From the NCBI GenBank assembly GCA_900155495.1, contig FTLJ01000124.1, positions 1-64,000 on the forward strand: a stretch of DNA of 64,000 nucleotides, written 5' to 3'. The translations under genes were made by a program, and so were the position numbers. Source of the DNA: Porogramme epimiltina. Lineage: Eukaryota > Basidiomycota > Agaricomycetes > Polyporales > Polyporaceae. The notes under the pieces are model-generated. The model was not told the DNA's origin. It was given only the letters and a program-made list of their open reading frames with translations, and did no database searches. Within the stretch, counting starts at the first letter, position 1; each line of letters starts with the position of its first letter. Of the stretch, positions 14,601-42,973 are shown in pieces.

Positions 14601-15361
14601 CTGGGTCATGCATCTTAATCTGACAGTACATAGTAGAGCCGGTGCTTGTCTGACTCCAATCGACGATACTCGACCTGTTCCCGGATACCCATTCTATAGG
14701 ACAGTTCTCAACGAATAGTGACTTTCAATATGAAGAGACCCCTTACCCGCTGTGATGTCTGTGTAGACCTGTACCGAATGTGAATTCCCGTCAAGGGAGG
14801 TCGCCTCAAGGGAAACGTAAGAGAAGGGGAGAGATTGTAGGACAAGGTTCGATGGCTTGGTGTCGAAACATAGTCAGTATATAGCGGATGGGTTATCATA
14901 TATATGAACTTACTTCAATCGGTGAGAGGAATGTGACAGTGAGGTTCATTTGGCCTGCTGTGATAGTAAATATGGTCCGTGTTGGAGTAAACAGTGTGCC
15001 GGTCACGGTTGCATTCATTTCTGGGTCCATTGTATCGATACCTCCAAGCCAGGAGTATGTCTTCCCGTCCACACGAATCTTGCCCCTCCATCCTAACATC
15101 GAACCTTGCTGTATATCGATGTCAGGTACTTCCATACGGAATGAAAGTCCCTGCACTCACCGCTTGGAGTGTCCAAAACAGAGGGAGTGTGGTGGATACT
15201 GGGTCACTTGTACTTGAGCTTGCCTCCCACGCGTTCAGGTAGGGCGACCGGACGGCGAGCGGGATACTCCCAGGAAAGAATGTCTGCGCTGTAGCTTGAA
15301 CATAGCTGAATAGTAGTAGTTGCGCAAAGGAGACCAAGGACAGAGACAAAGCACATCGCAT
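11674..15361 (-). CDS. Membrane-anchored glutaminase A-like protein, copy B
   Basis: Minus strand, start ATG at 15361. Signal peptide MRCALSLSLVSFAQLLLFSYVQA, then TFFPGSIPLAVRSPYLNAW. The GtaA domains follow in the same exon order as copy A: GWRGKIRVDGKTYSWLGG, MTVTFLSPIE-type strand, LTWAIGLVRDPTIEY, ARQTMASLEITVG, VERLYAAFPALLYMNASLGG, VAIKGIIALKAMAEISRALG and SDSGVRDQLIASAWTRANFNGT. Then come a Ser/Gly linker, a transmembrane helix (VGAIAGAAIGGVVVVAIAVGALVYL), RRRR, and a Pro/Ser-rich tail. The tail has a heptad segment (GLRGEMQSLRQQMDEMR) and ends APPQYIG, a PPxY motif. One intron (13589-13642) uses a GC donor (GCACGT) at the position seen in copies A and E. Frames are intact. Expected role: type I surface protein with an extracellular amidase-type domain. 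Confidence 0.87.
13589..13642 (-). other. GC-AG intron in copy B
   Basis: The exon ends GATCTCG, the intron starts GCACGT and ends ATATTAG. Splicing gives QDLGLIYPVADVPG, aligned with the GC-AG intron site of A and E. Confidence 0.5.
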
Positions 15362-19200: not shown

Positions 19201-19812
19201 CTTGATAATGACGAGAGACAATATGCTACTTACGTGCGGTGATTTCTGAGTAGAGTTCGATGTGATGAGCTTGATTATGCCCCGACTTCACGATGACAGT
19301 TACATAGGAGAATGGTAGGGACTGGTTGACGATGTTGGATGGCTTAAAATGACGTTCGTCGGCGAGCTAAGGGCAGATAGTTGTCAAGACTCACCTCTAT
19401 GGGGGACAAAAATGTGACAGTGAGATCCACAGGTCCGGCTGTCATGTTATATACGGATTTTGTCGGCGTTATTTGAATCCCGTTAACTTTCGCAGGTGTA
19501 CTGTTGGTGGATGGCCCCATCCAGGTGTAGTCACCCTCGTTCCCGTCGATTCTAATCCTGCCTCCCCATCCTATACGGTGCTGCATAAAGATCAGAATAT
19601 GTCCTTAAAAATGAAAGATGACGCACCGTTTGATTCCAAAACATTGCCGAAGAGTTAGACAGAGGGCCGCTTTCAAATGTGCTAGGTTGCCATACATTCA
19701 TGTACGGAGAGCGTATGGCGAGTGGGATGCTAGCTGGATAGAATGTCTGAGAACTAGAAGGCGAGAATAATGCCGCGAGAAACAGAGAGAAAATGGATCT
19801 ACTGGACAGCAT
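16227..19812 (-). CDS. Membrane-anchored glutaminase A-like protein, copy C, with divergent tail
   Basis: Start ATG at 19812. Signal peptide MLSSRSIFSLFLAALFSPSSS, then QTFYPASIPLAIRSPYMNVW. The ectodomain is a complete GtaA-type fold by motif order: WGGRIRIDG..YTWMG, MTAGPVDLTVTFLSPIE, ITWAVGFVRNPSVSYTT, CTRQVLGSLDITVLDG, VERIYAAFPAFLYLNPSLGA, LAVKGIIGVKAMAEISNTLG, LLGFYGNDQSWSLLYNIYADRLLGT and QTVRDKLIQHAWERANLNAT. The transmembrane helix is ATIVSGAVGGAVFFIIAVTACLY with basic residues after it. The tail differs from its neighbours: no LRxEVQxLRR heptads and no PPxY; it ends RPGRLASDED. The intron homologous to the GC-AG introns of A, B and E has a normal GT donor here (18112-18162). Frames look intact. 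Confidence 0.86.
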
Positions 19813-20699: not shown

Positions 20700-22017
20700 C
20701 TACCATGTCGCGTACTGCGGTAGCTGATCGAAATGGGCAGCGTTCAGCTCCTGCACGACTCTCCGCAAGTCCTGCACCTCCTCTCGTAGTCTAGCCACTA
20801 CATCTTCTGTCGCAGACGAAGCACCCGTCACTGTGACAGATCCATCTGGGATAGACCTATCTGAAGTGAGTGACCGCCGACCGCTGACGGCAAATGCCGC
20901 TCGACGAGATCGCGAAGGGAGAGGTGGCGACAAGGGGTCGGCTGTGACGAGTGACGCGCGCGGCCTGGATCTAGGGAGAGGAGCAGAAGTGGACAGCCTG
21001 ATTTTCTGCGCCTTGGGGAGAGGCGCAGGCGTATGCGGCTGTGTGACGGCCACCGGCGAACTGGAAATCGTTGCGAGGTGCGATGAGAAGGCGTCTTGCT
21101 CGCGGCTGGTGGCTGATCTCGTCTCGAACCATGTTTGGAGAGTGTTGGACGGGTTCTCAGCGGCGAATGAAGCGCGCTTCCGTGAACGTCGGTAGAGGAA
21201 CACCACACCCTGAGTGATGCCAGCGACCACGGCGACGCCGCCAAGGATGCCGCCGATGATAATACCGGAAATCGGAGCTTTTCTGCCTTCGGTGGGTGCG
21301 CTACCGTCGGCTCTGTCAGCTCGGTTGGTCCCGCTGGCCCCGCTGGTCCCGTTGGTACCGTTGGTCCCGTTATTTCCACTGATGCTCTCACTGTTTCCTC
21401 CATCACCTCCGTTTCCTCCGTTTCCTCCTACCCCACCGTTAGTACCATCGCCACCGTTCCCTCCGTTTCCGCCTGTTCCGCCATTCCCGCCATTCCCGCC
21501 TATTCCGCCGTTTTCAGCACCCCCTCCACCGCCTCCACCTCCGCCGCCTCCACCGCCTCCACTATCACCACCCCTCCCTCCGTTCCCGGTGGCAATTGTT
21601 TCCCCACTCTCCCCATCTCCGTTTTCACTCTGTCGGATATTCTTCCGCTGTTCACCGGGACTTATGAGTGATATAAACATGTTTCACGTCGATCATAGTG
21701 TGCATGTGAGTAATCCAAAGTCCTTAGATAATATTTTGCATATGGTCACTCACATAGAGCCAAAGTGCGAAAATATTGCATCAAGGTTCGGTCTATAAGG
21801 ATTGTAAGGATGAAAAGAGGTCCCTCATTCGGTATAGCAGGACTCACCCTGCCGCGCCTTTAACGGATTGGTCGTCGTACCGTATTTTCGGAGGGCGAGT
21901 GGACAAGGGTACACCAGCAGGGAAGAGATGTTGGCCAACAGCTCCTTGGCTGGCGAGAGCGAGAGCAAAAGAGGTAAGTAGGAAGAGCCTCACAGGGATG
22001 GCCTTAGAAGACACCAT
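20700..22017 (-). CDS. D1: signal peptide, Gly/Asn-rich ectodomain, TM helix, conserved tail (enzyme-less GtaA derivative)
   Basis: Three exons: 21848-22017, 21754-21792 and about 20700-21667. Exon 1 gives the signal peptide MVSSKAIPVRLFLLTSFALALASQGAVG, then HLFPAGVPLSTRP, a recognisable form of the GtaA mature start, then KGAAG. Exon 2 (GPNLDAIFSHFGS) is homologous to the 39-40 bp penultimate exon of the full-length copies. Exon 3 encodes a long Gly/Asn-rich region (21389-21587), tandem NGT sequons, a transmembrane helix (ISGIIIGGILGGVAVVAGITQGV), FLYRRSRKR, the motif SNTLQTWFETRS, then LREEVQDLRRVVQELN and the end LPQYATW. About 370 residues. No catalytic part remains, so it cannot be a glutaminase. 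A wall-embedded sensor or receptor is an inference. Confidence 0.75.
21389..21587 (-). repeat. Gly/Asn-rich tandem repeat coding region of D1
   Basis: About 66 residues made of [11 protein letters not shown] and GGDGG units, with a run of 14 Gly. At DNA level it is an impure repeat of 9-18 bp units rich in CCTCC and CCGTT on the plus strand. Confidence 0.8.
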
Positions 22018-22079
22018 GCAGCTAGATAGTAGGTACAATAGTATGGAAGAAAGTGGCGGTAATTCGGCATCTTACCGCT

Positions 22080-22260
22080 TCATATAGCATTGCACCATGA
22101 TTCCACGAACACTCACCACGCTATCCAAATCCTCGGCTCAGGTCGGATGGAGATCGATTGTTTGTGGCGTATAGTTAGAACTATAACACTAGAAACTCCT
22201 ACTGGAGTGCAACCCTATAAATGCGGTTGAGTGCCATTCGCTGGTGATTCGCGCCATGTA
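22080..22260 (-). promoter_or_regulatory. Class I promoter block of D1
   Basis: Contains CTATATGA (on the minus strand, 22081-22088) about 64 bp before the ATG at 22017. The block is strongly similar to 30407-30600 before D3, including AACTATAACACTAGA or its close variant and CCTATAAATGCGG. Conservation of noncoding DNA between duplicates may simply reflect recent copying. Confidence 0.5.
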
Positions 22261-23099
22261 TCTACCATACCTTCGTAACTTGAGCTGCGTACAGTTTGCA
22301 TTCGATTTATGCATCCGGTTAGTATGATATGGTGCAGAAATAGGGAAACGCCAGCAATCCCAATGGGATACAGGACGACTTGCGACTAATATGCGGCCTA
22401 GGAATGACGCTTCCGCTGCCGAGACTGCTGCTGTGCGGCAGAACGTTCTCGTTTGCTGGACTCAGGTCTCCCAGATTGCCTCAAATCGAATGGTGTCCGA
22501 AGGGCGTCTCATCCTAGGATGAAAAATGTCGTGAACGTCAACTATTTTTTGATACTTACGCCTCCCCATCTACCACTGCCACCAAGCGAGGATCGTAGTC
22601 AGTGTGTCAACGACGGGGTGTGTGCAGCGTGATATTACCGCGCGATGATACCCCGCCCATGGAAGCCACGAGGATCCCAGCGAAATCTGGCGGGTTTCTG
22701 GAATAAACTGCGACCGAAAAGCTGACGGTTACTACCTCAATCACTGCCTCAAGACATGAGGTAATTTGATACACACCTGCGGAAAGTCAAGTTTAGAATA
22801 CGGTGCGGGAAGCAAGCGGATATTACATACTCAGTGGACGACGAGCGATGATACCGAACGCCTTCGACTATCCTAGGGTGAACAGCTTCTGTACAAGCAA
22901 ACGGTTCTGTGACCTATTTATGTTCGAAGCGTGGGCTGTTCAGCGAATGTTCAGAAAGCTGGACTGCTCAAATGCCGACTTATCCCCGAAAAGCCCTTGA
23001 GAAGACAGATGCATTTTCAGCGTGTTTATAGGAACAAATGCATTGCACCCTACGAAGAAGCCAACGCCTGCCCCTCCTCGGCGTTAGCCCTCAAAAATA

Positions 23100-23280
23100 G
23101 CCCCGCATGTGGGAGCTGGAATGCACTTCTCAACGCCCGAACTGGAGCGCATAGACGGTAATAAGAAGTGTTTTTACAGCACGTTTCCCAGCGCATTCAG
23201 TATGCCGCATGACCTTCTTCATGATCGAGTTGTCCTTGTTGGTGGTAGCTATGGAGAAGGTAGGTCAGCATGAGAGAACA
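23100..23280 (-). pseudogene. Decayed fragment of an unidentified duplicated gene (copy 1)
   Basis: The minus strand reads NKDNSIMKKVMRHTECAGKRAVKTL before a stop. A second copy at 31390-31540 reads INKDSPITKEVML... and shows GKRAIETVTIAVDGPQLGD in a shifted frame. The pair suggests an old coding sequence that has lost its frame. I do not recognise the family. Confidence 0.3.
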
Positions 23281-23329
23281 CCGCACGCAGTTGGCTCGAT
23301 GTACCCATAGTGAGAGGTTGGATTTGACC

Positions 23330-23600
23330 TTGCTCTCGAAAATCGACGAGCTAGTCGAATGAACGCGAAACATATTATGCCCAATGTGCCCGGATGTGTT
23401 AGATCTTGCTTCTGGCTCAAGGCAAACGAATACGAACCATCAGAGTTACGTATGCTATGCGGCTTCCTTCAAAGGGCTCCGTTCATTGTCCAGATGTCCG
23501 AGTTTCTCGACTCTCCACGCCATGGAAAGGGACGTCAGAGGCGCAGGAGGCTGCATCGTAATTCGTGATTGTAGTACTCAGGTAGTAGTGGTTACGATCG
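23330..23600. repeat. Spacer repeat R1, copy 1
   Basis: The first of three diverged copies (others at 31600-31860 and 35345-35640). Shared landmarks are a TATGC(G/C)CA(A/C)(T)GTG string, an AACGTATGCTAT-like string and GGAGGCTGCATCGTAATT. The minus strand of the better copies is partly open (LSYLDTLRIVRDAHLAFIDE), which suggests a relic gene. Confidence 0.45.
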
Positions 23601-23617
23601 TCGGACCCTGATCATCT

Positions 23618-23780
23618 CTAGAGTAAAAGTTCGAGAGTGTTCAGCATCCCCTTTCCAGCCGCACTGGAATTATTCTGCGCCGTTGGTAGAGGAGAACCCC
23701 TGTAGAGGTGATGGTGAGTTGTAACGACAGCACACAGCAAAACCAAGGAGACCGTCAGCCGAATTTCGGCGCCTATTCCA
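23618..23780 (-). pseudogene. Relic of a GtaA-type transmembrane/tail exon
   Basis: The minus strand can be aligned by eye with the transmembrane-coding region of copy E: a GTCTCCTTGG-TTT... stretch followed by CTCTACCAACGGCGCAG. Only short similarity remains and the frame is not kept. The parallel sequence near 31866-31950 supports it. Confidence 0.25.
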
Positions 23781-25233
23781 CAGTCACCCTCTCTCTCTCG
23801 TTTGCCCTGCCCGCTCGCCTCGACCTTCTTCCATATCGAAACGTCGACCAACACCTGCTAAGAACCCTCCAAAGCCTGTCCCTTCGGAGCAAACATTACG
23901 TACAGAAGACGTCAGGGCGTTACTGTGGTCGGGCCATGCGCAATTTCGCGTGCATCAGTGTACTCTGGGGGTGAACGTATGCGATTGCGTAGAGGACAAC
24001 GACACAATGTGAGTACCATCATTTTATCGTAACCCCCCTGTACCACGAAAATCGTGTGCACTGACGACCTATCCCCTTCGCAATAGCATGAATCCTTGGA
24101 TCAGGTTGCTGGTCAGTGGTGATACATAGGTCCACCACCTAGTAGTAGGAAAGATCGAGATTGAGGTGTGTAGGAAGTGGTAGAACCATAGTAACGCGTT
24201 CAAGTGAGTCTTCGTTTCGGATCATTAACTCGAGGTGGCCGAGAGACTAGCATGGTCCTTGACATAGATAGCGCAAACGCTCTCAAGAAGCTCAGGTGAT
24301 TGCCACCCCCTAGGCTATCGCATCCTCGGACAAGTGGAAGGAAATCGCTGCTTCTAGCAAAAAAGCACTTCCCTATTGCTACATCTGTGAGTATGTTCGT
24401 CTCTTCCTCGTGAATCCTCTCTGTTCCATTTTGGCATCGTCCTCCCACTCCCTCTGTCGCGTGCCACAGGCGTTACGATTCGCCAAGCGCTACTTATCGC
24501 GCTGTGATTCTGTGCGTTCCATTGCAGCCTGTTCATTCGGCCACTTCTAGAACTTCACGATTCCGCATTCTCGTGTCCCCTTCTGCCGCACTTTCGCTAA
24601 TCTAGAGACTCGAGGACGTGCCAGAGGGTGAGAACGAGGAAGACTTCGACACTAACTCACCCGCGGACATCCCTGAGACCACTGTCAACCTAGCGACGAT
24701 CGTAAATAGGGAGCAGCCAAACACGGGCGACTCCAGCAGCAGGGAGCGCGACAGGCTTGGGTATGGGGCCGACATGACGGGCGCAAGCCACCTGGGACCT
24801 CTGCGGAGAGCGGATGACGTCGTCCGATGTCATCCGTACCAATCGTCAGTTGGTCGCACTAGTACTGTGGCCGTTTCTATGTGAGAACATTGTCTATATG
24901 TCTCTGCCAACCAATTCAATGTATTTTGTGCTCATACAAGGCATGAATCCTGTGTGTCTATGAACAGCATACTTCGCTCGGGGAGTCAATGGGACCTCTC
25001 CTAAGAGCGAGCAGAAATGCGGCTGGTTGCAAGGGTATGGTAGGGGATACACGCAAGGAACGTAATCGTACGAGAGGGATGGAACCGTACGGTAAGGAAC
25101 GACGGCGTACACGAAGTACGAGACCAAAATGGGCACCAAGGAGTGACTAAGTAGCAAAGATACCACAAACGAGGCCGATATGTCCGAAACTACACCATTG
25201 TCCTACATGTCATGTGCTGGCTCTCATACTACA

Positions 25234-26983
25234 CTATGCCTCGTACTCCGGGAGGCGGTCGAAACCCCGCTCCATGTTTATTTGCTGCACGGCTCTCCGC
25301 AAGTCCTCCACCTGTTCCCGTATCCCGATCACGTCGTCTGTCACCGACAGCGATACGGGGGCTGAGGAAGAACCGTCTGAGGTGGTCATACTATCCGAGA
25401 TGAGTGACTGTCGTCCAGAGGGATGTACCTGCGCTGCTCGAGGATGACCGGGTGGAAGGAGATATGGCAACGAGGTAGTAGTCGCTGTGATTTGCGACAC
25501 GCGTTGCCCGGTGGATCTCGGAAGAGGTTGCGCAGAAGAGATGGATGCTCTCTCTGCATTGGCGAGAGGTGGCGGCGAATGCAGTTGTGTGGTGTACGCT
25601 GAGCCTGGGAGCATCGCGAAAGAGGACGTCTCGGAGAAGGTGTCTCGGTCGCGATGTGACGTTGATCTTGTCTCGAACCAATCTTGGAGGGTATTGGAAG
25701 GTTTTTTTAGAGGATATGCGTTCCTCCGTGAACGTTGGTAGAGGAGGGCCGTAACAATGGCGACCAAGGCCACGCCGGCAAGGACAGCGCCGACGATGAG
25801 AGCGATGATGGACGCTTTCTTGTCACCGCTGTTTCCACCGCCATTATTGTTATTCCCGTTGTTTGAGTTCCCTGGGAGGATTGTGCTTGCAACGTTGGGG
25901 ATACTGGTGAGCGTGGTGCTTACAACGCTCGTGCTCGTAACACTAGTGATGCTCGAGCTTGTTGTGCTTGCAACAATGCTTGTGGTACTCGTGCGTACGG
26001 TGCTCGTCCTTGCGCTGGCAGCGGTTGCACTTGCAGTGATTGCACTATTCGAGCTTGCAGAAATTTCGGTACGCGTGCTTGCGGTGGTGCTCAGCGAACT
26101 GCTCGGCGGGAAAGTTGGAAATGCGATTGCGTTTCCTCCGCTTCCTCCGCTTCCACCTATTCCGCCGCCTTCCGAGCTTCCGCCTTTTCCACCGCCTCCA
26201 GCGATTGCGCCACTGCCTTCGGCGATTCCTCCGTTTCCTCCGCTTCCTCCGATTCCACCGTTTTCACCAGTTCCACCAGCGCCTCCATTTCCACCAGTTC
26301 CACCGTTAATGCCAGTTCCACCGTTTCCGCCATTTCCACCAACTCCACCATTGATACTGCTTCCGCCATTTCCGCCATTCCCGCCAACTCCACCATTTAT
26401 AGCATTGCCACCGTTTCCGCCATTTCCGCCTGCCAATCCATTGTCTACGATAGAAAGACTCCGATTGGGTGTTATCGACGCTTTCCGGCGGCTGATGATG
26501 GGTATACTTGTCACCTAGAAGTCCTGAGTATGGTGGCAGATGTGACTTACGTCAGGACGAGGCGTGAAAAAACCGCACGAAGGCTTGTGCTGAGTGTGGA
26601 TTGCGAAGGTCAGATAAAGTTGCTCCCACTTATTATGGTTGGGCTCACTGGTCGGTAGCCGCACTAGAAGCTGTGTTATCCTTGGCGTGGTAGCTCGTGA
26701 ATGCGCTCGGAGCGGAAATTCTCTCTTCCATTGCCCATGTTTCTTGAGTGAATTTGTCACGGACGGTAGTGATCGCCATGCTTGTTGCCCTGAACATTAG
26801 CCATGATGACGGTAGATGACTGCTGTTATTTGTAGCTTTTTGCGATGTGCTCGAGCTTGAAGAGCAGGAAATCAAGGGTATGCTAGCAGGAAAGAGCTCT
26901 TGGCCAGTGAGCACTCTGTGAGCGAGACCAATTATGAGAGAGACAAGCAGGAGCCGCACGACGGCGGTCACGGAGTGCGACAT
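25234..26983 (-). CDS. D2: signal peptide, Gly-rich and Ser/Thr-rich ectodomain, TM helix, conserved tail (enzyme-less GtaA derivative)
   Basis: Start chosen at the ATG at 26983 ([24 protein letters not shown]), because D4 and D5 start at the same place and a TATA-like element lies 58 bp upstream; an earlier in-frame ATG at 27100 is less likely. Exon 1 (26649-26983) gives ELFPASIPL, then [20 protein letters not shown], where the GtaA start runs straight into the GtaA end. A short exon and a long last exon follow. The ectodomain has about 100 residues of Gly/Asn repeats (26130-26430) and a Ser/Thr-rich stalk (about 25900-26106). Next come the TM helix ([24 protein letters not shown]), [33 protein letters not shown] and the end LPEYEA. 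About 530 residues. The stalk-and-helix layout recalls Wsc/Mid2-type wall sensors, but there is no sequence homology to them. Confidence 0.75.
26130..26430 (-). repeat. Gly/Asn-rich tandem repeat coding region of D2
   Basis: About 100 residues, built on GGNGGNGG with inserts such as SINGGVGG and TGINGGTGG, a near 39 bp higher-order unit in places. It is the longest Gly-rich region in the family. Confidence 0.8.
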
Positions 26984-28887
26984 GCAGTGAGACGGTGTAG
27001 GATTCCAGGAGTAAGCGTTTGGACTGAGGACATCCTCGCCTTTCATAGAAAAATCTACTCCAACTCGATGAAAATTTACAAGGGGCTTCGAGTGCTCCAT
27101 CTTCTGTGGCGCGCAGCTCGGAAACGTAAAGTTCCCACTGAAGCGCCACTTTATGGACGTTTTTGAATCTCATTCGTTGGTGATACGCCGTATCGTCGCC
27201 GGGCAGTAGAAAACACCTTGAATGTGTACGAGAAATCAGATCTTCTATTGTGATACAATGATAGACCATTTCCCTAGATCGCTTCCGGTACTTAGCCTGA
27301 CGGGTCATCTATGAATGTAATTAGCATCGAGTCTGCAGTAGTACTTCTCTCCTCCTACCTGCCACTTCCAAACGGGATTAGCTGTAAGCATCCTAGTAGG
27401 CGTGCAGTCTTACCGAAAAGTCTGGGGAGAGGGATACGCAATGTCACAGGGCGAGGATATGCCTACGATGAGGACTGGATGAGTCCCGTAAGGCTGCGAA
27501 GGCATCTCTGCAAACCTTCGGCGGAGAAACCAACTGTTTCCGCCGTTATCACCGTCACGAATGAGTATGCAACTGTTTATCAACTTGCGGGAGGCTAAGA
27601 TTATAATCCATCGCACTGGACGCACAGAAGTGATTGGAGTTTAACTGGGTCCCCGTCGAGTTGTACCAAATTCTCTATAGACAGTCAGGAATATGACCCA
27701 TTTGAATCTGAAACGTCGGTAAGTTAGCGAATATACGGGTGGCCTGTTCAAATTACTACTTACTACTAGGGAACCCTCAGGGGAAAAGCATCTCACTGCA
27801 GTGCGGTCATGATTACAACCATATCGCCGGGTTTGATCCCAATCAATATAGCCCGCCGTGGGTGAGAATCGCCGCACTATGAGATGCCGGGATAGGAAGA
27901 GTAGGAGATAAATCTGTAGTGTGGCGCAGGCGAGCAATCTGGTAACAATCATCAATGGATGTGAAGGGCCGGCGATATAGTCCAAATAGATAACTAGATA
28001 CCTGGATGTCAGCACTGCAGGAGCCTTAACGACCGTGTGATTGATTCACAGACCATACATGATAGCACTCACATAAACGGCCATCTTTCTAGCGCGAGTA
28101 CGCCGGTGATTGTAGCCATTTTTGATTTTTCGTGTTCGACGCATCTAAAATATGTGATGAGCTTTCCGTACCAGTTATTTCCATGGCTCCCTCAACCTGA
28201 CCTCGAAGCGGCCTACGACTCCGCAAGGTTAACCGCCGACATAGTTTGCAATTGGAGGACTCAGGATAAGGTTATATGTATTCGCTGCGCCGCTCACGAT
28301 CCTGTCATCGATCATGTTAATAGCCTAAACATGAGTTTCTCCATAGTGTTATGTCAATGGTGAATAGGAGGGATCCAAGATTTTGTGCCACTGGTGGAGG
28401 AACGTGGCGAACGCTGGCCTGGGTGACTCACTTGGCAAAAACATGATTATATAAGCAACGGTGGGACAAGTAGGGCGCTTAGGGGACTTACTAATTAGCC
28501 TGCTGCAACTCAAACTTTCCGGGCCCTCAGTCCTAAAACACGGCTAGCAAGTTCGTGTAACTAGCTTTAGAAAGGGTCAGATGAGGGTGCAAGCAAGAAA
28601 TTACAAACAGAAGGCATACAAATGACACCTAGAAATGTGGAGAGCGTCGAACTTCAGTAACATGGAGTGCATTGTCTGTGGCAATTCACGGTTGCGAGGC
28701 TGGAGTCGGATGAGTAGAGTTCCACACTTCGACTCACGGAGCTTGCTTTATGACCTCGACTATGTTCAGAAATGCTTGTCTCCGACATTTTGGGCAGTCG
28801 TTGTACTATGGCAATATGGATGAAGTTGGGAGTAAATTTCCGGAACACATTGTTCAGGCTACTTGTACTATATGATGCGTTCTTGTA
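26984..28887. other. Spacer between D2 and D3
   Basis: About 1.9 kb. 27.0-28.5 kb parallels the upstream regions of D4 (34.15-34.75) and D5 (37.43-39.0). It contains a TATA-like TTCTATGAAA (minus strand, 27041-27050) for D2 and one copy of the spacer element with TGATTATATAAGC (28446-28458). From about 28790 it is the D3 3' flank. No intact gene recognised. Confidence 0.45.
28340..28490. repeat. Spacer repeat R2, copy 1
   Basis: Shares GTCAATGGTGA, then TTTTGTG, GGCAAACGCTGG-like and TGATTATATAAGC with copies at about 34600-34750 and 38840-38980. The most diverged of the three. Confidence 0.45.
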
Positions 28888-30346
28888 CTATGCTGCGTAC
28901 TGTGGAATGCAATCTCTGAATCGAGCAGCATTCGGCTCCTGAACGACTCTCCGCCAGTCCTCCACCGCCTCTCGTAGTCCAGCCAAACCTTCTGTCGTTG
29001 ACGACGCATCCGTTACTGTGACAGATTCGTTGGAGATAACTTGAAACCTATTTGAAACGAGTGAAGGCTGCCGCCCGATGGAAAATGCCGTTCGACGAGA
29101 TCGTGAAGGGAGAGGTGGCGACAAGGGGTCCGTGGCGACGAGCGAAGCACTCCACCTGGGTCCCTGGAGAGGTTGAGCAGAGGACAGCCCGATTTTCTGC
29201 GCCTTGGAGAGAGGTGCAGGTGCATGTGACTGTGCGACGGCCAGTGTTGCGAGATGCGATGAGAAGGTGTCTTGCTCGCGGCTGGTGGCTAATCTTGTCT
29301 CGAACCACTCTTGGAGGGTGTTGGACGGGTTCTTAGCGGCGAACGAGGCGTGTTTCCGTGAACGTCGGTAGAGGAAGACCCCTCCAGTGATGGCAGCAAC
29401 CACGGCGACACCCCCAAGGACGCTGCCGATGATGACAACAGAAACCGGAGCTATCCTGCCTTTGATGGGTGCGCTCCCATCGTCTCCGCTGGTTCCGTTG
29501 GTTCCGTTGGTCGCGCTGGGTCCGTTGGTCGTGTTGGTTCCATTGGGCGCGTTAGTCGCATTGTTTCCATTGATCCCTCCACCCCATTTGTTGCCTCCGT
29601 TTCCACCTATCATGCCACCCCTACTATTTTCACCATTTCCGCAATTTCCGCCGTTTCCACCGTTTCCTTCATTCCCGCCCATTCCACCGCCCCATCTACC
29701 GCTCCTTCCTTCACCGCCTCTGCCGCCTCCGCAACTTCCACCATCACTACCCCCACCGTCGATTCTTCTAATCATCTCTCCATTTTCTCTATCTTCGTTT
29801 TCACTTCCACTCTGTTGAGTATTCTCCCATTGCCTACTACTGGGTCTGGTGAGGGATATAAGCGTGTTCCAAGCCAACCACAATGTACACGTGAGTATCC
29901 AAGAGTGCTTGTGTGCCTGGTCACTCACATCGAGCGAAGGTGCGAAAGTATTGCACTAAGGTCGGGCCTGAATGTGTTGTAAGGATAAGAGAAGTACACC
30001 TCACTTGCTGTGGTAGAACTCACCCTGCCGCGCCTTTCGCGAATTCATCGTCGTTGGTGTGATGGTCCGTGAACGTGCCGGGGGCGGTATTGCTGGCTGC
30101 CCTTCCCCATACCCGAAGAAGTTCGTCACGGACAGTGTTATTATTCTTGTCCTGAATCGCTGCTGTGACCACAAGCCATGGTGACGGCAGGAGACCGCCG
30201 GTATGTGTAGCCTTGTACCATGTTTTCGGGGAATGAACGGGGGAAGGGACAAGAGCAGGGGGGAGGTATTGTCCAAGAGCTCCTTCGCGGGCGAGAGCGA
30301 GGACGAGAGAGACAAGTAGCAGGAGGCGGACAATGGAAGACACCAT
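28888..30346 (-). CDS. D3: signal peptide, Gly/Asn-rich ectodomain, TM helix, conserved tail (enzyme-less GtaA derivative)
   Basis: Start ATG at 30346: MVSSIVRLLLLVSLVLALAREGALG, then QYLPPALVPSPVHSPKTW. Within the same exon the sequence passes to SPWLVVTAAIQDKNNNTVRDELLRVWGRAASNT, which matches the last GtaA segment of copies A and E (VVTDTNVRDML..VWNRANSNT). This is the clearest view of the internal deletion. Exon 2 is GPDLSAILSHLRS. The last exon gives a Gly-rich part (29571-29754), clustered NAT/NGT/NTT sequons, the TM helix (VVIIGSVLGGVAVVAAITGGVFLY), RRSRKH, SNTLQEWFETRL, LREAVEDWRRVVQEPN and the end IPQYAA. About 450 residues. D3 is the duplicate of D1 but keeps more of exon 1. Its tail heptads are weakened (DWRRVVQEPN), and its final motif is IPxY. 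Confidence 0.75.
29571..29754 (-). repeat. Gly-rich repeat coding region of D3
   Basis: About 60 residues of GGGRGGEG, GGMGGNEGNGGNGG and similar units, more mixed than in D1 and D2. Confidence 0.7.
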
Positions 30347-30406
30347 ACAGCTCGGTAGTGCTATAGGATGGGAGGAGAGACAGTTAATCAAGCCCTTGTA
30401 GTACGC

Positions 30407-30600
30407 TCATATAGCACTACACCGTGGTTTCACGAACACTGCGAGTCGTCACGCTATCCAAGCCCTCAACTCCGGTCGGACGGAGATCGAGTGTTTGTGG
30501 CGGACAGTTAGGACTATAACACTAGATATTCCTACTGGAGTGCCACCCTATAAATGCGGATGAGTGCCATTCGCTAGTGATTCGTACCCGCCATCGATCA
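30407..30600 (-). promoter_or_regulatory. Class I promoter block of D3
   Basis: CTATATGA on the minus strand (30408-30415) sits 62 bp before the ATG at 30346, the same spacing as D1. Upstream sequence matches the D1 block. Confidence 0.5.
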
Positions 30601-31389
30601 TACCTTCGTCACTTGGCTCGCATGGAGTTTGTAAGCGATTTGTGCCTCTGGTTAGCGCAATACAATGCAGAGTAGGAGCGCACGAGCAACCCTGATGTGC
30701 AACAGGATGACTACGAGGTCGAGCAATGACGCTTCTGCTCCAGAGATTGAAGTTATATGGCGAAATATTCTCGTTTACTGAGCTCGGGTCGCGATAATTG
30801 CGTCCAAGGATCATCACGTCACACGATTAAAAATATCATGATCTTTGATGCCTACGCCTCCTCCTTTACTGCCGCGGAGTGAGAATAGCGGACAGTGTAT
30901 GCAGCTAATATAGTAATATTAGTGTAAGGATACCCTGCCCGTGGAAGATGTGAAGACTCGAATGAAGTCCGACAGGTTCCTGGGACAACTCGTCGAGCGA
31001 GAAGCTGACGGTTGCTATCTTACTCACTGCCTCGAGACATAAGGTGATCTGATACGTACCTGCGGAGAATGCGGTGCGCGAAGCAAGTGAATTCTACTTG
31101 GCCAACTGTGGGCAATAATGACAAGTCCTTTCGACTATCCTAGGGTTGACAGCTTCCGAGTATGAAAAACACCTCTGTGACTCGTTGAAAGTCAAAGCGT
31201 ATATTGTTCAGAGAATGTGTGGGGTTCGGAAAAGCTCAAATGCTGACTTACCCGCCAGAATGCCTCAAGAAGAAGGATGCATTGTAGTGTGGTTATGGGA
31301 ACAAACACGTCGCACTCTACAAGGCCGACGCCTGCCACGCCTCCGTGTCAAAATCGGCGAAAACAGCCCCAAGGGTAGAAGCTGAGATG

Positions 31390-31540
31390 CACTTACCTTG
31401 CAATCCCCGAGCTGGGGCCCATCTACTGCGATGGTAACTGTCTCGATTGCCCGTTTCCCGCGGGTGCGCCACACGTAGCATGACCTCCTTCGTGATCGGG
31501 CTGTCCTTGTTGATAGCTGTGGAGAAAGCGGGTCAGCATG
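31390..31540 (-). pseudogene. Decayed fragment of an unidentified duplicated gene (copy 2)
   Basis: Partner of 23100-23280. The minus strand reads INKDSPITKEVML, then the homologous GKRAIETVTIAVDG in another frame, so one copy or both carry indels. Family not recognised. Confidence 0.3.
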
Positions 31541-31599
31541 GGAGCACTCCATACGCAGCTGATTGAATAGGATAACGGTAATCGGAGGCGTTAGACTTG

Positions 31600-31860
31600 G
31601 TCTAGCTCTAGGATATCGACGAGCTCGTCGACGAATGCGAGGCGAGCATCACAGACTATGCGCACTGTGTCCATATATGTCAATGCGAATACGCACCATC
31701 AGAATGACGTATGCTATAGAGCTGCATTCGAAGGATTCAGTTCACCGCCCATGTGTTCCAGTTCCCCAATTCTCCGCGTCATGGATGAGGTGAAAGCGCA
31801 GGAGGGTGCATCGTGGTTCGGGATTGCACTAGTTATCGTTGTAAGATGCATCTTTTAGCT
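31600..31860. repeat. Spacer repeat R1, copy 2
   Basis: Partner of 23330-23600 and 35345-35640. The minus strand ends ...RDARLAFVDELVDILELDQV before a stop, the longest protein-like remnant of this element. Confidence 0.45.
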
Positions 31861-31865
31861 TCTTC

Positions 31866-31950
31866 TGCTACCGTTGGTGGAGGGAAGCCCTTGCGAAGGC
31901 GACGGGGGCAATAGTAGTACCACCAAGGACGCCGTCAATGGAAGCTTACT
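31866..31950 (-). pseudogene. Relic of a GtaA-type transmembrane-coding segment
   Basis: The minus strand reads GACGGCGTCCTTGGTGG followed by an Ala/Val-coding stretch, close to GGCGGCGTCCTCGGCGG in copy E, which encodes the start of its TM helix. Only about 80 bp is recognisable. Confidence 0.3.
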
Positions 31951-32610
31951 TACTTGAGCTGAGTTTATTTGAATCGCTCCCGGTGCGTGCTCTCCCGCCG
32001 TTGCCTCTGTTTTCATTCCGTCTCATTCCATTCTGTCCAAGAGGCGTTGAGCGGTATTATCACGTTCTGCTGGAGGCTGAGTGTAGGCAGCCTGGTTGGT
32101 TCTCACTAATCGGCCCTCCGGAGGAAGTTGAAGCTTGTAAGGATGCTACGGACACTGTTATTGTGTTTAGTTGTATTGAGTATCAGGTTGCGATTCACAC
32201 CACCATGCTATAGGTAGGACGTCTTGCGTTGAACGTTGAAGTTGGAGCGACGCGACGCAAGTCCGGACGCGTCTGACGCGCGGGCAACGGATCCTTCGAT
32301 GATCGGGAAAAACCAACTCGATGTCAGGTGATATTCACCATGACGTCATACAAAGTTCGACTCTGATGGGCGTCCCATTGATCGCTGGTAAGCTCTTGAA
32401 GCTTGAAGCGTGAGCAGCAACCAGGCTCGGATTAGTAGGGTACGTCTCATAGATATATAGGAAGAACGTGATCGTATGAGAGGAAATAAATAGTAAGGAA
32501 CTACGATACAAAACAAAAGCGGGTACTAAGGAGGGAACTGCTACATACAAGATAATTATATACAGAACTGAATCATTGTCCTACGTATGATGCACTGATT
32601 CTCCACTACA

Positions 32611-34140
32611 CTATGCTTCGTACCCTGGGAGGCTGTCAGAGCGCCGGACACTGTTCAGTCGTTGCAAAACCCTCCGTAATTCCTCCATCTGCTCCCGTAT
32701 CCCCATCATGTCTTCCGTCGTAGCCTGAGACAGAGACAGCCTGGGGGCTGAAGAAGACCTGGCTGGAGTCGCAACGTCGGAGATGATTGACAGCCGGTGG
32801 GAGGCAGGTGTCACCTGCAGGGGCCGACCAGGGGGGAGGAGATATGGCAGTGAGGTAGTAGTCTCTGTGATGAGCGATCCCCGAGGCCCGAATCTAGGAA
32901 GGCATTGTGTAGGAAACGGCACTGCTAGCGATCTCTCCGCGTCAATTAAAGGTGACAACGAGTGCGATTTTATGGTCCCTGGGTTGGAGGGCGTTGAGAG
33001 AGACGACGTCTCGGAGAGTGTATCTTGGTTGTAAGGGGATGTCGACCTTGTCTCGAACCAGTCTTGAAGAGTATTGGATGGTTTCTTCTCGGTAGGAGCA
33101 GCGCGCTTCCGTGAACGCTGGCAGAGGAGGAATACAACGATGACGGCCACGGCCACGCCACTAAGGACGGCGCTGATGATGAGAGCAGTGATGGAAGCTT
33201 TGTTACTTGTGCTGTCGTTGTCGTCTCCGTCTCCGTCTCCGTCTCCGTCTCCGAGTCTGTTCCCGTTGTTCCCACTGGTTGGGGTGCTTGAGATGACCGT
33301 GCGTGTGACGCTTACGACGCTCATGCTCATGATGCTTGTGCTTGATGCGGTGATGTTTGTGTGGGCTCCGTCATTCCCTCCTGTTCCTCCTCCGGGAATT
33401 CCTACGCTTGCGTTTCCACCGTTCCCAGCGTGGATACTGTTCTCGTCGTTCCCGTTCCCGCTGTTCGTGACCGTGATATTCCCGCCGTTCCCGCCTGTCG
33501 CGTTCGGATTATTGATCTGCACGCCGCTACCATTTGCATTGCCGCCGTTCCCGCCGTTTCCACTTGTCACGTTATTTATAATCGTGTCAAGATCTTCTCT
33601 GACAGAAACATTGGACGATATGGACAGGTTCCGGCGACTAAGCATGGAAATGTTAGTCACTAAAAAGTCTTGAGAATCACGCGATAGTTTGCTTACGTTA
33701 ATACTAGGCGCGAGGATTTTGCACAGGGGCTCGTCCTGAAAATGGGGAAGCTGGTCAGAGACAGAGCGTCTCGCTCGCTGTGATTGTGCCTACCGTGCGA
33801 TGCTGTTGGTGGAGACATTTAAAGACGTCTCGGGATTGACGTGATAGCCTGCGGATTTGCCCGGAGTGATATCACTCGCTGCTATTGCAGGCATTCCTGG
33901 GGTAAACTTGACACGGGCTGCGGCATTCGCCACACTCGTTCCTCTGAGCGTAGACCATGTCAACGGTAGATAACTGCTCCAATTTGTATTTTTGTGCAAT
34001 GCACTGGAGCATAAGGAGCGGGCGACAAAGGGGACGCTAGCAGGAAAGAACTCTTGACTAGTTGTTGCTCTGTGAGAGAGACAAATTATGAGAGAGACGA
34101 GCAGGAGGAGCCGCACGACGGCGGCCACGGAGTGCGACAT
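32611..34140 (-). CDS. D4: signal peptide, Gly/Asn-rich ectodomain, TM helix, conserved tail (enzyme-less GtaA derivative)
   Basis: Start ATG at 34140: [21 protein letters not shown], then EFFPASVPFVARSL. Exon 1 runs on into LPLTWSTLRGTSVANAAARVKF, the same fusion as in D2 and D5. The short second exon (TSPCAKSSRLVLT) and a last exon starting near SRRNLSISSNVSV follow. The ectodomain is Gly/Asn-rich (33375-33561), then Thr/Ser-rich, then a GDGDGDGDDND acid run from a perfect hexanucleotide repeat. The TM helix is ITALIISAVLSGVAVAVIVVFLL, followed by [35 protein letters not shown] and the end LPGYEA. About 460 residues. Closely related to D5; the class II signal peptide (MSHS) and promoter are shared with D2 and D5. 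Confidence 0.75.
33223..33252. repeat. Perfect hexanucleotide microsatellite in D4
   Basis: Five copies of GTCTCC on the plus strand. In the minus-strand gene this encodes alternating Gly-Asp just outside the membrane. D5 lacks it at the matching place, so the length changed after duplication. Confidence 0.9.
33375..33561 (-). repeat. Gly/Asn-rich coding region of D4
   Basis: About 62 residues with GGNGGN units interspersed with sequon-like NAT, NIT and NAS. Confidence 0.65.
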
Positions 34141-34196
34141 GGAGTAAGACGGTGTAGAATGGCAGGAGTAAGTGGCTGAGCCGGGGGCATCCCAGC

Positions 34197-34206
34197 CTTT
34201 ATAGAA
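34197..34206 (-). promoter_or_regulatory. Class II TATA box of D4
   Basis: TTCTATAAAGG on the minus strand, about 60 bp before the ATG; the same string is 60 bp before the D5 ATG, and a mutated form is before D2. Confidence 0.5.
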
Positions 34207-34599
34207 AAACTCAGGCCAGCCATATGGGAGCTCACCGTGTCGTAAATTTCCCCCATTCCAGGAGGATGGGTGGGCTTCATGTGCTCTGTCTTTCGTGGCG
34301 CACAGACAAAAAACTTGAAGTTCCCACTGAACCGCCGCCCTATGAAGCTCATTTGTCAGTGCTTCACAGTGTTGTCACCGAATCATGGTAAACACGTTGA
34401 ACGTGTATGGGAGACCAGTTTTTCCATCACGATACGATGCCAGGCAGCTTTTAGATCTCCTCCATTAAGAAGAGTCGTCGCTGTGTGATGGGTCGTCTAT
34501 GATTGTAGACTTTACCCTTTCGTAGGGTGCTCGGGCTTCAAGACGAGTGCCTGTATGATTTCTGAGCTTGAATGCGTTAAGAGGCGGAATGCAAGTCGT

Positions 34600-34750
34600 G
34601 CCACGGTGCCACGTCAATGGTGAGCAGGAGGCATTCAAGGTTTTGTGGAAGAATTTGGCAAACGCTGGTTCAGGTAGCCGCCGCGAGTCATTGGCGACAT
34701 TCCATGATTATATAAGCGGCAACGAGACCAGGTAAGCGCCCTACTGGTGC
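34600..34750. repeat. Spacer repeat R2, copy 2
   Basis: Near-identical to 38820-38980 over GTCAATGGTGAGCAGGAGGC and TGATTATATAAGCG. Confidence 0.6.
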
Positions 34751-35086
34751 TGACCGAATTTTTCTCTGATTTTCTCTAATCCCCGACAGAGAGAAGTCTG
34801 CATATCGAAAGGCGACGTATATGTGATGCATATGAGGTGCAGCCTAGTGCACAGCCAAGGAGATCAACACTGCCGCCGCTTTAAAGGCAGTGGGAGTTTT
34901 CGTTGGCCACCGCTCACTGCGGGCTATGTCCATGACACATGTAGCAACCACTAAATCGGGAGTCGCTGTGCTGATTCTTCAACAAAAACATCCATTATGT
35001 GGCCTATACTGAGGATCGCGTGACCGCAAACGCCAAACCCCGATAAATTGTCTATGCAGTACATCCAGGGTACCCCAGGCGGCCTC

Positions 35087-35340
35087 TCAGAAGCCCTGAT
35101 CCTCCTGGTACACAGGCGGTGGCTCAGAACGTTCCTGTCTGATCCGCTCCATCACCCGCCGTAGGTTCTGCACCTCAACTCGAAGTCCTACTACGTCATC
35201 TGTCGCCGGTATTGAATGAATTGCCGTACTTGCATCATAGTCGAAGCCGGCGTTGAAGTGAGCAGGCAAGTCCTGTGGGCTTGCGATCTCCGATCCGGGT
35301 ACGGATAGACTCAAAATGCCTGTACCCGACCCGTGGCATA
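35087..35340 (-). pseudogene. Truncated copy of the 3' end of GtaA-like copy E
   Basis: The minus strand encodes PQDLPAHFNAGFDYDASTAIHSI, then TDDVVGLRVEVQNLRRVMERIRQ and the end PPPVYQEDQGF, almost identical to the tail of copy E (39338-39540). The homology ends at about 35300-35340 where the sequence switches to repeat R1. There is no membrane helix, ectodomain or promoter. It is a duplication breakpoint product rather than a gene. Confidence 0.75.
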
Positions 35341-35344
35341 CCTT

Positions 35345-35640
35345 ACTCATCGATAAATGCCAGGTGAGCATCACGAACTATGCGCAATGTGTCCAGATAT
35401 GACAATGCGAATACGCACCATCGGAATGACGTATGCTATAGAATTGCCTTCGAAGGGTTCAATTCACCGCCCAGATGCTCCAATTCCCTGATTCTCCGCG
35501 TCTTGGACGGAGGCTGCATCGTGATTTGGGATTGCACTGAAGCTTGTAAGTATGCTACGGACACCATTGTTGCGTTGGGTTTTGTGGGGAAGCAGGTTGC
35601 GAGTCCATCATGCTATGGGTAGGACGTCTTGGGACTCGAG
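35345..35640. repeat. Spacer repeat R1, copy 3
   Basis: Partner of 23330-23600 and 31600-31860. The minus strand reads LSYLDTLRIVRDAHLAFIDE and, after an in-frame stop, TRRIRELEHLGGELNPSKAIL on the upstream side. Suggests a decayed unknown gene. Confidence 0.45.
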
Positions 35641-36037
35641 AACAGTGAAGTTGGTGCAACACCGTACAGTCAGGCTCAACGAGTCATCATGCATCAGCGC
35701 TCAGCCATGGTGCCGCGTGATTGCCATATTTGGTACTGAGTTTAGCGCGGGTCAGCCCGCTTCAACAAAAATGCGTGTTTCCCATCTCTTATGCAAACGG
35801 CTGTAGCAGAGTAGCAACTAGGCTCGTATTAGCAGGGTGCGTCTCATAGATATATGTGAAGAATGTAGTCGTAAATAAATAGTAAGGAACAACAAATGTA
35901 CACCGGATAGTACGATAGAAACAAAAGCGGATACCAAGAAGGCAAGGATGCGACTCGGAGAACTGACACATACAAGATAAATACATACAAAATCGCGCCA
36001 TCATGTCCTACGTAGGATACGCCGATTCTCCACTACA

Positions 36038-37427
36038 CTATCCTTCGTACTCTGGGAGACTGTCGGGGCGCTGCACCCTGCCATTCAGTTGTTGCACAAC
36101 CCTCCGTAATTCCTCCACCTGCTCCCGTATCCCCATCGTGTCTTCCGTCGCGGACAAGGACAGACTTGGGGCTGAAGAAGACCTGGCTGGAATGGCAACA
36201 TCGGAAACGAATGACAGCTGGCGAGAGGCAGGTGTCACCTGTACCGCTTGGGGACGGCTAGGGGGGAGGAGATATGGCAGTGAGGTAGTAGTCGCTGTGG
36301 CGAGCGATGCCCGATGCCCGGATCTAGGAAGGGACTGTGTAGGAAACGGCACTACGTATACTAGCGATCTCTCCGCGTCAATTAAAGGTGACGGCGAGTG
36401 CGATTTGATAGTCCCTGGGCCGGAGGCCGCTGAGAGAGACGACGTCTCGGAGAGGGTATCTTGGTTGCAATGGGAGGTTGACCTCGTCTCGAACCAGTCT
36501 TGAAGAGTATTGGATGGTTTCTTCTCGGTAGAAGCAGCGCGCTTCCGTGAACGCTGGTAGAGGAGGAACACAACGATGACGGCGACGGCTATGCTACTAA
36601 GGACAGCGCTGACGATGAGTGTGGCGATGGAAGCTTTGTTACTTGTGCTGTCGTTGTCGTTTCCGTCTTTGTTCCCTCTGTCCCCACTGGTTGGGACGCT
36701 TGAGATACTTGTGAACGTGATGCTTACAATGCTCGTGCTTGTGATGTTTGTGTTTGCAGGCTTCTTTCCAGATCCACCATTCCCTTCTGTTCTTCCTCCG
36801 CCATCTCCTATACTGACGTTTCCTCCCTTCCCACCGTTCACGCCGTTCCCGGCTGTCACTGTGTCATTTGAGAAACTTCTTCTGACAGAAACATTGGACG
36901 ATATTGACATGGTCCTGCGGCTAAGCACGAGGATGCTAGTCAGTGAGGAGTTTTCAAAACCAGATGGTACTGGTTTACTTACGCCAGTCGGATTAGGCGC
37001 GAGGACTTTACACCAAGGCTCGTCCTAAAGATGGGAAGATGAGCAGAGAAGGGCATCTAGCTCTCTGCGATTGTGCTTACCCTACGATGCTGTTGGTGGG
37101 AGCATCAAAAGACGTCTTGTGGTTGACGTGATAGCATGCAAATTCTCCCGGAGTGGTATCACTCGCTGCTATTGCGCGCATTCCTGGGGTAAACTTGTCA
37201 TCAGTCGTAGCAATCGCCACACTCGTTCCTCTGAACATTGGCCATGACAATGGCAGGTGCTTGATGGTATGTGTAGTTTTGTGCAATGCGCTCAAGCATA
37301 AGGAGTGTTTGACCAAGGGGGTGCTAGCAGGAAAGAACTCTTGACTAGTTGTTACTCTGCGAGCGAGACCGATTATGAGAGAGACGAGCAGGAGGAGCCG
37401 CACGGCGGTGGCCACGGAGTGCGACAT
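36038..37427 (-). CDS. D5: signal peptide, short Gly-rich ectodomain, TM helix, conserved tail (enzyme-less GtaA derivative)
   Basis: Start ATG at 37427: [25 protein letters not shown], then EFFPASTPLVKHSL. Exon 1 continues LPLSWPMFRGTSVAIATTDDKF, the class II fusion. The second exon is TSLGVKSSRLIRL; the last exon begins RRTMSISSNVSVRRSF. The Gly-rich part is the shortest of the family (about 28 residues, 36767-36853), followed by a Thr/Ser region. The TM helix is IATLIVSAVLSSIAVAVIVVFLLY, then [34 protein letters not shown] and the end LPEYEG. About 410 residues. The cytoplasmic part is nearly the same as that of D4 while the ectodomain differs in length, so the two parts evolve at different rates. 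Confidence 0.75.
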
Positions 37428-42300: not shown

Positions 42301-42973
42301 CATTCTATACGTAGGTGTTCGTTAGCCTGGTAATCAATTGACAACGGCATTGCCCTCACCTGTGGATATATCGGAGTAAATCTGAACAGAATGTGCCGCA
42401 CCATCGAGAGAAAATGCCTCAACAGAGACGTACGAGAATGGCATGGACTGCTTGACCAAATCCGATGGCTGCCACGTCACGCGACGCATGCGGCATGAGT
42501 AATTGTAGAGCAGGGGCCGCTAGGGAGGGATACTTACTTCAATGGGGGATAAGAAGGTAACAGTGACATTCATAGGGCCAGCCGTCATCACGTATATGGA
42601 TCGAGTCGGGGTAATCTGCATGTTCGTAGGATGGATGACCAAGGTCGGGTTTGTGCGAGGCGCGTTTAGTCCAAGCCAAGAATACGAGATGTTATCCACC
42701 CGGATGCTCCCTGTCCATTCCATGACCTCCTGAAATGTAGTTTCATAACGCTGCTTCAGTGAAAAGCATGGCGATGCGTACCTTCTGTGTCCAGAACACA
42801 GGCGACGAGACCGAAAGGGGGGACTGTCCATCTGCAGCATTATGCCATGTGCTGAGATAAGGGGTGCGCACGGCCAAGGGGATGCTAGCGGGGAAGAACG
42901 TCTGAACAGTGCTACGTTGACCGTAAGCCAGCAGTACAACGTTGAGGATGACGGAGAACGTGTAGAGTAGCAT
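39338..42973 (-). CDS. Membrane-anchored glutaminase A-like protein, copy E
   Basis: Start ATG at 42973. Signal peptide MLLYTFSVILNVVLLAYG, then TFFPASIPLAVRTPYLSTW. It follows copy A exon by exon: EWTGSIRVDNISYSWLGL, MTAGPMNVTVTFLSPIE, ARQVMGSMDITVLQSN, SDVKIFIKDIGG, GVIGIRAMAEISRVTG, FGDSSSWSLAWNLYADLLLGT and VTDPNVRDMLTQGVWNRANSNTT. The TM helix is IIVGGVLGGAVVTATAVAAVIFF, then RRRRR. The tail shares VAASWHPV with copy A, then DDVVGLRAEVQDLRRVMERIRQ and the end PPPVYQEDQGF (PPxY). All exons are open. A GC-AG intron lies at 41207-41252. Copy E is the sister of copy A but lies on the other strand at the far end of the array. Confidence 0.88.
41207..41252 (-). other. GC-AG intron in copy E
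   Basis: The minus strand reads CCGATGTTG then GCAAGTG and ends CTTTAG. Splicing restores DVGGSYPFPSAG. Same position as the GC-AG introns of copies A and B. Confidence 0.6.

Follow-up and report, generated by a model that had tools for sequence, protein, structure and literature searches.

An array of five enzyme-less paralogs derived from a GtaA-like gene in the polypore Porogramme epimiltina

What remains of an enzyme gene once its catalytic part is gone, and could the remainder have a role of its own? The question is raised by a 64,000-nucleotide stretch of Porogramme epimiltina DNA (assembly GCA_900155495.1, contig FTLJ01000124.1, positions 1 to 64,000 of the forward strand; hereafter the window), in which five three-exon genes, termed D1 to D5, occupy minus-strand positions 20700-37427, flanked by A3 and A4 of a set of full-length GtaA-like genes (A1 to A4). 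An earlier interpretation of the window, the sequence-only reading, had recognized these five as enzyme-less members of a GtaA-like gene family; its start and end coordinates match the re-assembled models, all five of which are in frame with zero internal stops, and both enzyme domains are gone. The models are as follows.

D1, 22017-20700, minus strand: exons 22017-21848, 21792-21754 and approximately 21660-20700; model of 389 amino acids, intron-2 acceptor uncertain.
D2, 26983-25234, minus strand: exons 26983-26649, 26589-26551 and 26491-25234; 543 amino acids.
D3, 30346-28888, minus strand: exons 30346-30024, 29967-29929 and approximately 29845-28888; model of 439 amino acids, IPQY end.
D4, 34140-32611, minus strand: exons 34140-33794, 33735-33697 and 33637-32611; 470 amino acids.
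D5, 37427-36038, minus strand: exons 37427-37081, 37024-36983 and 36920-36038; 423 amino acids.

Each gene has two GT-AG introns, the first of 55-59 nt and the second, in D2, D4, and D5, of 59-62 nt; the intron-2 acceptor of D1 and D3 is ambiguous, as several AGs leave the frame open and the sequence alone gives no choice among them. Exon 1 encodes a signal peptide, a FPASIPL-like start and a short remnant; it is shorter in D1 than in D3 by 153 nt (51 codons). The signal peptide with FPAxxPL start, previously ascribed to all five genes, holds for D1 (FPAGVPL), D2 (FPASIPL), D4 (FPASVPF), and D5 (FPASTPL); the start of D3 is degenerate (PPALVPS). The short penultimate exon is indeed kept, with 39 nt in four of the five genes and 42 nt in D5, compared to 39 nt in exon 17 of A1-A4. 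Exon 3 encodes, in this order, the ectodomain, a transmembrane (TM) helix, an RSRKR-type stop-transfer sequence, the motif PSNTLQxWFETR, a stretch rich in Ser and Pro, a short heptad helix and, at the C-terminus, a PY-type motif; it matches the TM/tail exon of the GtaA-like genes, as implied by the claim that the TM helix, the RRSRKR-type stop-transfer and the cytoplasmic end had been retained.

D1-D5 are enzyme-less paralogs derived from a GtaA-like gene. Their exon 1 is GtaA exon 1 fused to exon 16, with 570 residues missing relative to A2 and 576 relative to A1, in agreement with the catalytic middle of roughly 570 residues reported absent. In A2, PF17168 occupies residues 110-339 and PF16335, the GtaA six-hairpin domain, residues 346-694; approximately the last 62 residues of the latter remain in the D genes. 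When exon 1 of D3, the copy in which the last catalytic exon of GtaA is best preserved, was compared with the whole genome (41.9 Mb, 926 contigs; expect value (E) ≤1), the 11 matches consisted of the five D exon 1s and six others (E 0.0018-0.05, individually weak), all six of which overlap GtaA exon 16 at query residues 52-101, one being A1. A profile of GtaA exons 16 + 17, built from 21 genes and controlled with 2000 shuffled D sequences, yielded 43.5 bits for D3 and 24.5 for D2; D5 (10.1) and D1 (9.2) were close to the best shuffle (9.3), and D4 gave no hit. With the exon-1 profile including the signal peptide, D5 and D2 (27.1 each), D4 (25.7), D1 (16.4), and D3 (11.3) were compared with a best shuffle of 8.5; for the mature part (D5 19.1, D2 18.5, D4 13.8, D1 10.1, D3 4.0; best of 2000 shuffles 11.8), D2, D4, and D5 beat every shuffle even without the signal peptide. 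Homology of D exons 1/2 to GtaA, on which the sequence-only reading had staked its claim, is above chance for the D family, not for each single copy; the exon-16 descent of D1, D4, and D5 has its basis in the DNA similarity within the family. The Pfam scans of single D proteins, which left out D4, matched neither PF17168 nor PF16335 in whole D3 and D5 or in the N-terminal parts of D1, D2, D3, and D5, and the genome-wide match lists of both domains contain zero D coordinates.

The position of the deletion can be narrowed down: D2 aligns to both the exon-1 and the exon-16/17 profiles, the alignments overlap at SWLMF, GtaA exon 1 terminates in ..SSWPVFWT and exon 16 begins with ..AWLLFTSA, which places the junction at a common W-x-x-F. 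In some genes a similar short DNA stretch surrounds the W codon on both sides of the junction, and the junction cannot be assigned to a single base. Across the D family, the N-terminal exon, exon 16 and the 39-nt exon 17 all speak for descent, with variation among copies, and the D TM helix, coil and PY tail are homologous to GtaA exon 18. In a midpoint-rooted FastTree phylogeny of 25 sequences (270 columns, exon 16 through the C-terminus), D1-D5 formed a clade with support 1.000 and the topology ((D1,D3),(D2,(D4,D5))), joined to the GtaA genes L049, L051, A1, A4, and L047 with support 0.945. An unrelated TM gene as the source of D exon 3 was ruled out, since the D5 tail query recovers the A1 tail (E 7.7e-4), the LRxEVxxLRR coil register is common to D and GtaA tails, and the D clade lies inside the GtaA tree. 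The reverse order of events, in which a small D gene would be ancestral and GtaA would have acquired its catalytic part within it, has nothing beyond the common ends in its favor and is extremely improbable: both end modules belong to full-length enzymes in the 21 GtaA profile copies, similar FNPASVPLAVRSPYL starts occur in the tail-less loci L064 and L065 with their different exon lengths, and the full-length relatives listed come from many Agaricomycetes, whereas D was found in none of the named organisms searched.

The full-length genes that surround the array are the following.

A1, 7587..11336, plus strand: full-length 18-exon GtaA, TM, PPVY tail.
A2, 11674..15361, minus strand: full-length 18-exon GtaA, PPQY tail.
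A3, 16227..19812, minus strand: full-length GtaA, TM present, no terminal PY motif.
A4, 39338..42973, minus strand: full-length 18-exon GtaA; TM, coil, PPPVY tail.

By spliced alignment, A1, A2, and A4 have 18 exons each and A3 has 19, with an uncertain 3' end; the start codons of A1, A3, and A4 were picked by eye. Among the matches listed, proteins of Cerioporus, Lentinus, and Polyporus were closest to A2 (56-58% identity), in which exons 8 and 9 are separated by an apparent GC-AG intron (window position 13643, minus strand). In the last part of A3 (16227-16883, minus strand) the TM is kept and the cytoplasmic tail terminates in LASDED without a PY motif, unlike its neighbors. A4 is the next modelled gene upstream of D5; A1 and A4, on opposite strands, share 75% DNA identity over 3.3 kb and flank the cluster as an inverted pair (7570-10866, plus strand; 42989-39742, minus strand). 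Genome-wide, PF17168 has 76 exon-level matches, and spliced alignment modelled 26 complete or partial GtaA loci, A1-A4 in the window and 22 elsewhere, some of them fragments. Two copies, L067 (contig C196) and L071 (contig C109), look degenerate by eye; L064 and L065 represent the GtaA subfamily without a tail, and the C-terminus of L064 is a hydrophobic stretch that we take to resemble the ending of glycosylphosphatidylinositol-anchored proteins. RNA families were not found within the window at gathering scores.

How the array arose can be read in part from its DNA. Similarity is 72% between D1 and D3 over the gene, 78-80% between D4 and D5 and 67-73% between D2 and D4/D5, and duplicated blocks connect D1/D3, D4/D5, and D2/D5; together with the tree topology, these similarities suggest the duplication of a D pair. 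One further feature lies inside the array.

GtaA last-exon relic, 35087..35377, minus strand: between D4 and D5; open frame, tail PPPVYQED.

Around the relic, the DNA (34540-35290) shares 86% identity with the 3' end of A4 (38768-39541), which suggests that a unit reaching from D5 to A4 was duplicated and in part lost. Conservation of a promoter across the D genes was considered and set aside as weak: in the upstream 250 bp, D1/D3 similarity (0.76) is above that of intron 1 (0.65) and the downstream flank (0.61), D4/D5 similarity (0.82) is barely above intron 1 (0.80) and the downstream flank (0.79), and between sub-clades two of six pairs equal the shuffles and the other four reach 0.47-0.58 against 0.41-0.43.

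The tail was also used to look for further members. A D5 TM + tail query recovered, genome-wide at E ≤0.01, the five D genes and two weak GtaA tails; a tail search at E ≤10 gave 23 matches, 22 of them D or GtaA tails (relic included) and one on contig C367 (E = 1), and another tail search gave 27, of which 25 (one of them at the degenerate copy L067) fall on D or GtaA loci and two on contig C109, one in the degenerate-looking sequence L071 and one at C109:69882. These searches, in which only the best candidates were scored, found no D-like gene outside the array. Two D searches of a protein database, which scored the best ~8000 candidates each and to which unannotated genes are invisible, found only P0001 and P0002, both from ENA contigs, and the same database does contain named Agaricomycete GtaA proteins (at least 120 of 320 matches). 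P0001 is 92% identical to D4, with an open frame and six-residue gaps; P0002 is 94% identical to D1, with an open frame and five-residue gaps, and extends to an LPQY end. The end of P0001 (IGRAHV) is presumably adapter sequence. On these comparisons the D family appears, provisionally, to be lineage-specific.

Are the five genes merely decaying, functionless truncated by-products of GtaA tandem duplication? The relic within the region, the degenerate-looking GtaA copies elsewhere and the weak constraint on exons 1 + 2 would fit such a history, which we nevertheless consider improbable, given that all five frames are intact despite proportions of synonymous differences (pS) up to 0.68, that the frames of P0001 and P0002 are open as well, and that the TM + tail is constrained. 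The ratio of nonsynonymous to synonymous substitution rates (dN/dS, Nei-Gojobori, ten D pairs) is 0.33-0.55 for the TM + tail in all ten pairs, with pS exceeding the nonsynonymous proportion in every one (Fisher p 2.0e-10 to 3.3e-3); for exons 1 + 2 it is 0.40-0.79, with p < 0.05 in seven of ten pairs. By these substitution patterns the D genes look functional.

The ectodomain bears on what that function might be. The sequence-only reading had the ectodomains fill the catalytic slot; they lie instead in the last exon, at the position of the old juxtamembrane linker, as an expanded version of that linker with 102-227 residues by our own cut, compared to approximately 37 (by eye) in the A1 equivalent. 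Tandem repeats of 9, 12, 15, 18, 27 or 45 bp occur in the ectodomains of D1-D3 and of 6 or 18 bp in that of D4; D2 has the longest GGX-repeat ectodomain. A polyglycine-II-type fold of the GGX repeats was dropped, as the Gly-rich part of D2 was modelled as disordered (single-sequence AlphaFold2 of exon 3, predicted local distance difference test (pLDDT) about 30), and the sole solved-structure match listed for this idea at E ≤1 was at chance level (E 0.59). Ser and Thr make up 14-28% of the ectodomains, and N-glycosylation sequons number 1-9, with nine in D4. An ectodomain of this composition, with a single TM and a conserved tail, could be the glycosylated wall stalk of a cell-wall stress sensor of the WSC/Mid2 kind, the tail then serving in signalling, a kind for which basidiomycetes would offer an open slot: according to the available part of a review, most components of the wall-integrity pathway are conserved in Cryptococcus neoformans, the sensors excepted (PMC9148135). 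We regard this assignment as unlikely, because Pfam found no Wsc domain in D3 and D5, the two whole proteins scanned, the ectodomains of D1 and D3 are Gly/Asn-rich rather than Ser/Thr-rich (S + T 14%), and a core sensor would not be expected to be confined, as D apparently is, to a single lineage.

The membrane anchor, in turn, contradicts the view of GtaA as secreted amidases: A1-A4 have a TM exon, and among the relatives listed (the best 120 of 320), 89 have at least 820 residues, of which 85 carry [PL]PxY in their last 25 residues. The anchor of the D proteins is therefore inherited; with the TM helix, the coil and the PY tail, the D genes retained what delivers the enzyme and probably governs its turnover, but not the enzyme itself. 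The amidase identity is itself in question, since a Streptomyces relative showed weak beta-galactosidase activity and, in the part of the article available, no glutaminase activity, and a glycoside hydrolase role was proposed for the DUF family; the reference list of the same article cites an Aspergillus oryzae glutaminase gene (PMC9668830). The GtaA-like parents, too, could be glycoside hydrolases instead of amidases. We take the Aspergillus oryzae gene in that list to be the one named GtaA. Within the Agaricomycete set P0003-P0122, the membrane-anchored GtaA-like proteins terminate in a conserved sequence of the LRxEVENLRRVMQEIRxERxEPPPEY type, which may be an overlooked general feature; membrane-anchored proteins with this conserved coil and PPxY-type tail, of which the open-access literature searched made no mention, suggest surface turnover controlled by a WW-domain ligase.

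The C-termini of D1 to D5 are LPQY, LPEY, IPQY, LPGY, and LPEY, whereas most enzyme tails end in PPxY; [PL]PxY occurs in 24 of 26 tails of the genome, in a comparison that left out A3 (four of five D and 20 of 21 GtaA, the exception being L062). According to the part of PMC1557994 available, LPxY represents a degenerate form of the PY motif and is connected with Rsp5; the [PL]PxY that characterizes cytoplasmic tails of Rsp5/Nedd4 clients is present in four of the five D proteins. PSNTLQxWFETR is invariant across the five D tails; P0001 and P0002 vary at its S and retain NTLQxWFETR. In the 22 GtaA models outside the window and in the last exons of A2-A4, neither of the strings WFETR and NTLQ occurs, the last exon of A1, checked for WFETR alone, does not contain it, and among the 120 relatives listed, two contain WFETR or NTLQ somewhere. 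The D proteins could be regulatory pseudoenzymes that pair with full-length GtaA via the common coil or compete for the WW-domain ligase, and thereby tune the surface level of the enzyme; the stronger constraint on the TM + tail than on exons 1 + 2, the shared coil register and the large GtaA set of this genome would suit such a role. It appears unlikely: NTLQxWFETR, kept in D, P0001, and P0002 and not seen in the GtaA models checked, suggests a partner of their own, and the D tails carry LPxY or IPxY in place of the PPxY of most enzymes.

The reading we favor is that the D proteins are mucin-like surface or wall stalks, with turnover regulated via an inherited WW-ligand tail. A gene of the A1/A4 type for a membrane-anchored GtaA-like ectoenzyme would have lost exons 2-15 in frame, a well-supported step; exon 1 would thereby have been joined to exon 16 around the common W-x-x-F, with loss of DUF5127 and of the greater part of the six-hairpin catalytic domain. 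The single ancestor would then have been duplicated in tandem beside A4, roughly as D1 + D2, D3 + D4, and D5 (likewise well supported), as the last exon gained length in its juxtamembrane linker, visibly via tandem repeats in D1-D4. The products would be surface proteins that cross the membrane once, carry a disordered, glycosylated stalk of mucin-like character and reuse the enzyme's signal peptide along with its TM helix and cytoplasmic coil, together with a C-terminal (L/I)PxY WW-ligand through which an Rsp5/Nedd4-type ubiquitin ligase may set their surface level; their role, in the wall or at the surface, is most likely wall-spanning and structural or sensor-like, without catalysis. The account as a whole, from the loss of exons 2-15 through tandem copying to mucin-like surface proteins without catalysis, we consider reasonably probable. 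That one deletion made the ectoenzyme into a lineage-specific, non-catalytic receptor-like or regulatory family, which through NTLQxWFETR and the inherited trafficking tail would control its parents or sense the wall, is possible, if doubtful.

As a caveat, several observations weigh against this account. Taken individually, the exon-16 homology of D1, D4, and D5 and the mature exon-1 homology of D1 and D3 are not significant, and in the D copies scanned the remnants go unrecognized by Pfam models; constraint on exons 1 + 2 is weaker, three of ten pairs not being significant at 0.05, and the ten dN/dS pairs are not independent. The ectodomain of D5 has no tandem repeat at score 40, and the AlphaFold2 models are of low confidence (mean pLDDT 42.9 and 57.5). 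D3 has IPQY rather than LPxY, and A3 and L062 are without a standard PY motif, which makes the motif dispensable in the family.

An enzyme gene whose catalytic part was lost in one in-frame deletion, and whose remainder was duplicated and kept under selection, presents a clear case of such a conversion, and the array of five stalk-TM-tail genes offers testable material in basidiomycetes, whose wall sensors, to judge from the available part of the review, are poorly known (PMC9148135). The open-access literature searched contained nothing on D-type genes or on GtaA-derived enzyme-less surface proteins, and by sequence no solved structure related to GtaA was found at E ≤0.1.

Several known systems resemble the D proteins in part. 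The layout had been thought to be without a described family; yet in this genome the L069 genes of contig C367 share its plan of ectodomain, TM, basic stop-transfer, coil and PPxY-type end (HPPPRY), with an unrelated ectodomain (QAFDGTWHD-type) and no GtaA sequence seen. Compared to the WSC/Mid2 wall sensors, as described in the available part of the review (PMC9148135), D2, D4, and D5 are alike in being single-pass proteins with a Ser/Thr-rich stalk and a cytoplasmic tail; they differ in that the D tail consists of a coil and LPxY and that the scanned D3 and D5 have no cysteine-rich Wsc domain. To Mid2-type sensors, in which a heavily O-mannosylated, Ser/Thr-rich ectodomain is coupled to Rho1/PKC, the likeness is one of composition (S + T 14-28%). 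The PY-motif clients of Rsp5/Nedd4 are matched by an LPxY C-terminus in all D proteins except D3, which has IPQY. The closest counterparts are the membrane-anchored Agaricomycete GtaA proteins (DUF1793-DUF4965-DUF5127): the D proteins differ from them in giving no DUF5127 or GtaA_6_Hairpin match in the scans, in the long ectodomain within the last exon and in NTLQxWFETR, which was not seen in the GtaA models; they share with them the signal peptide, the FPASIPL start, the last catalytic exon, the 39-nt exon 17, the TM helix, the cytoplasmic coil and the C-terminal PY-type motif.

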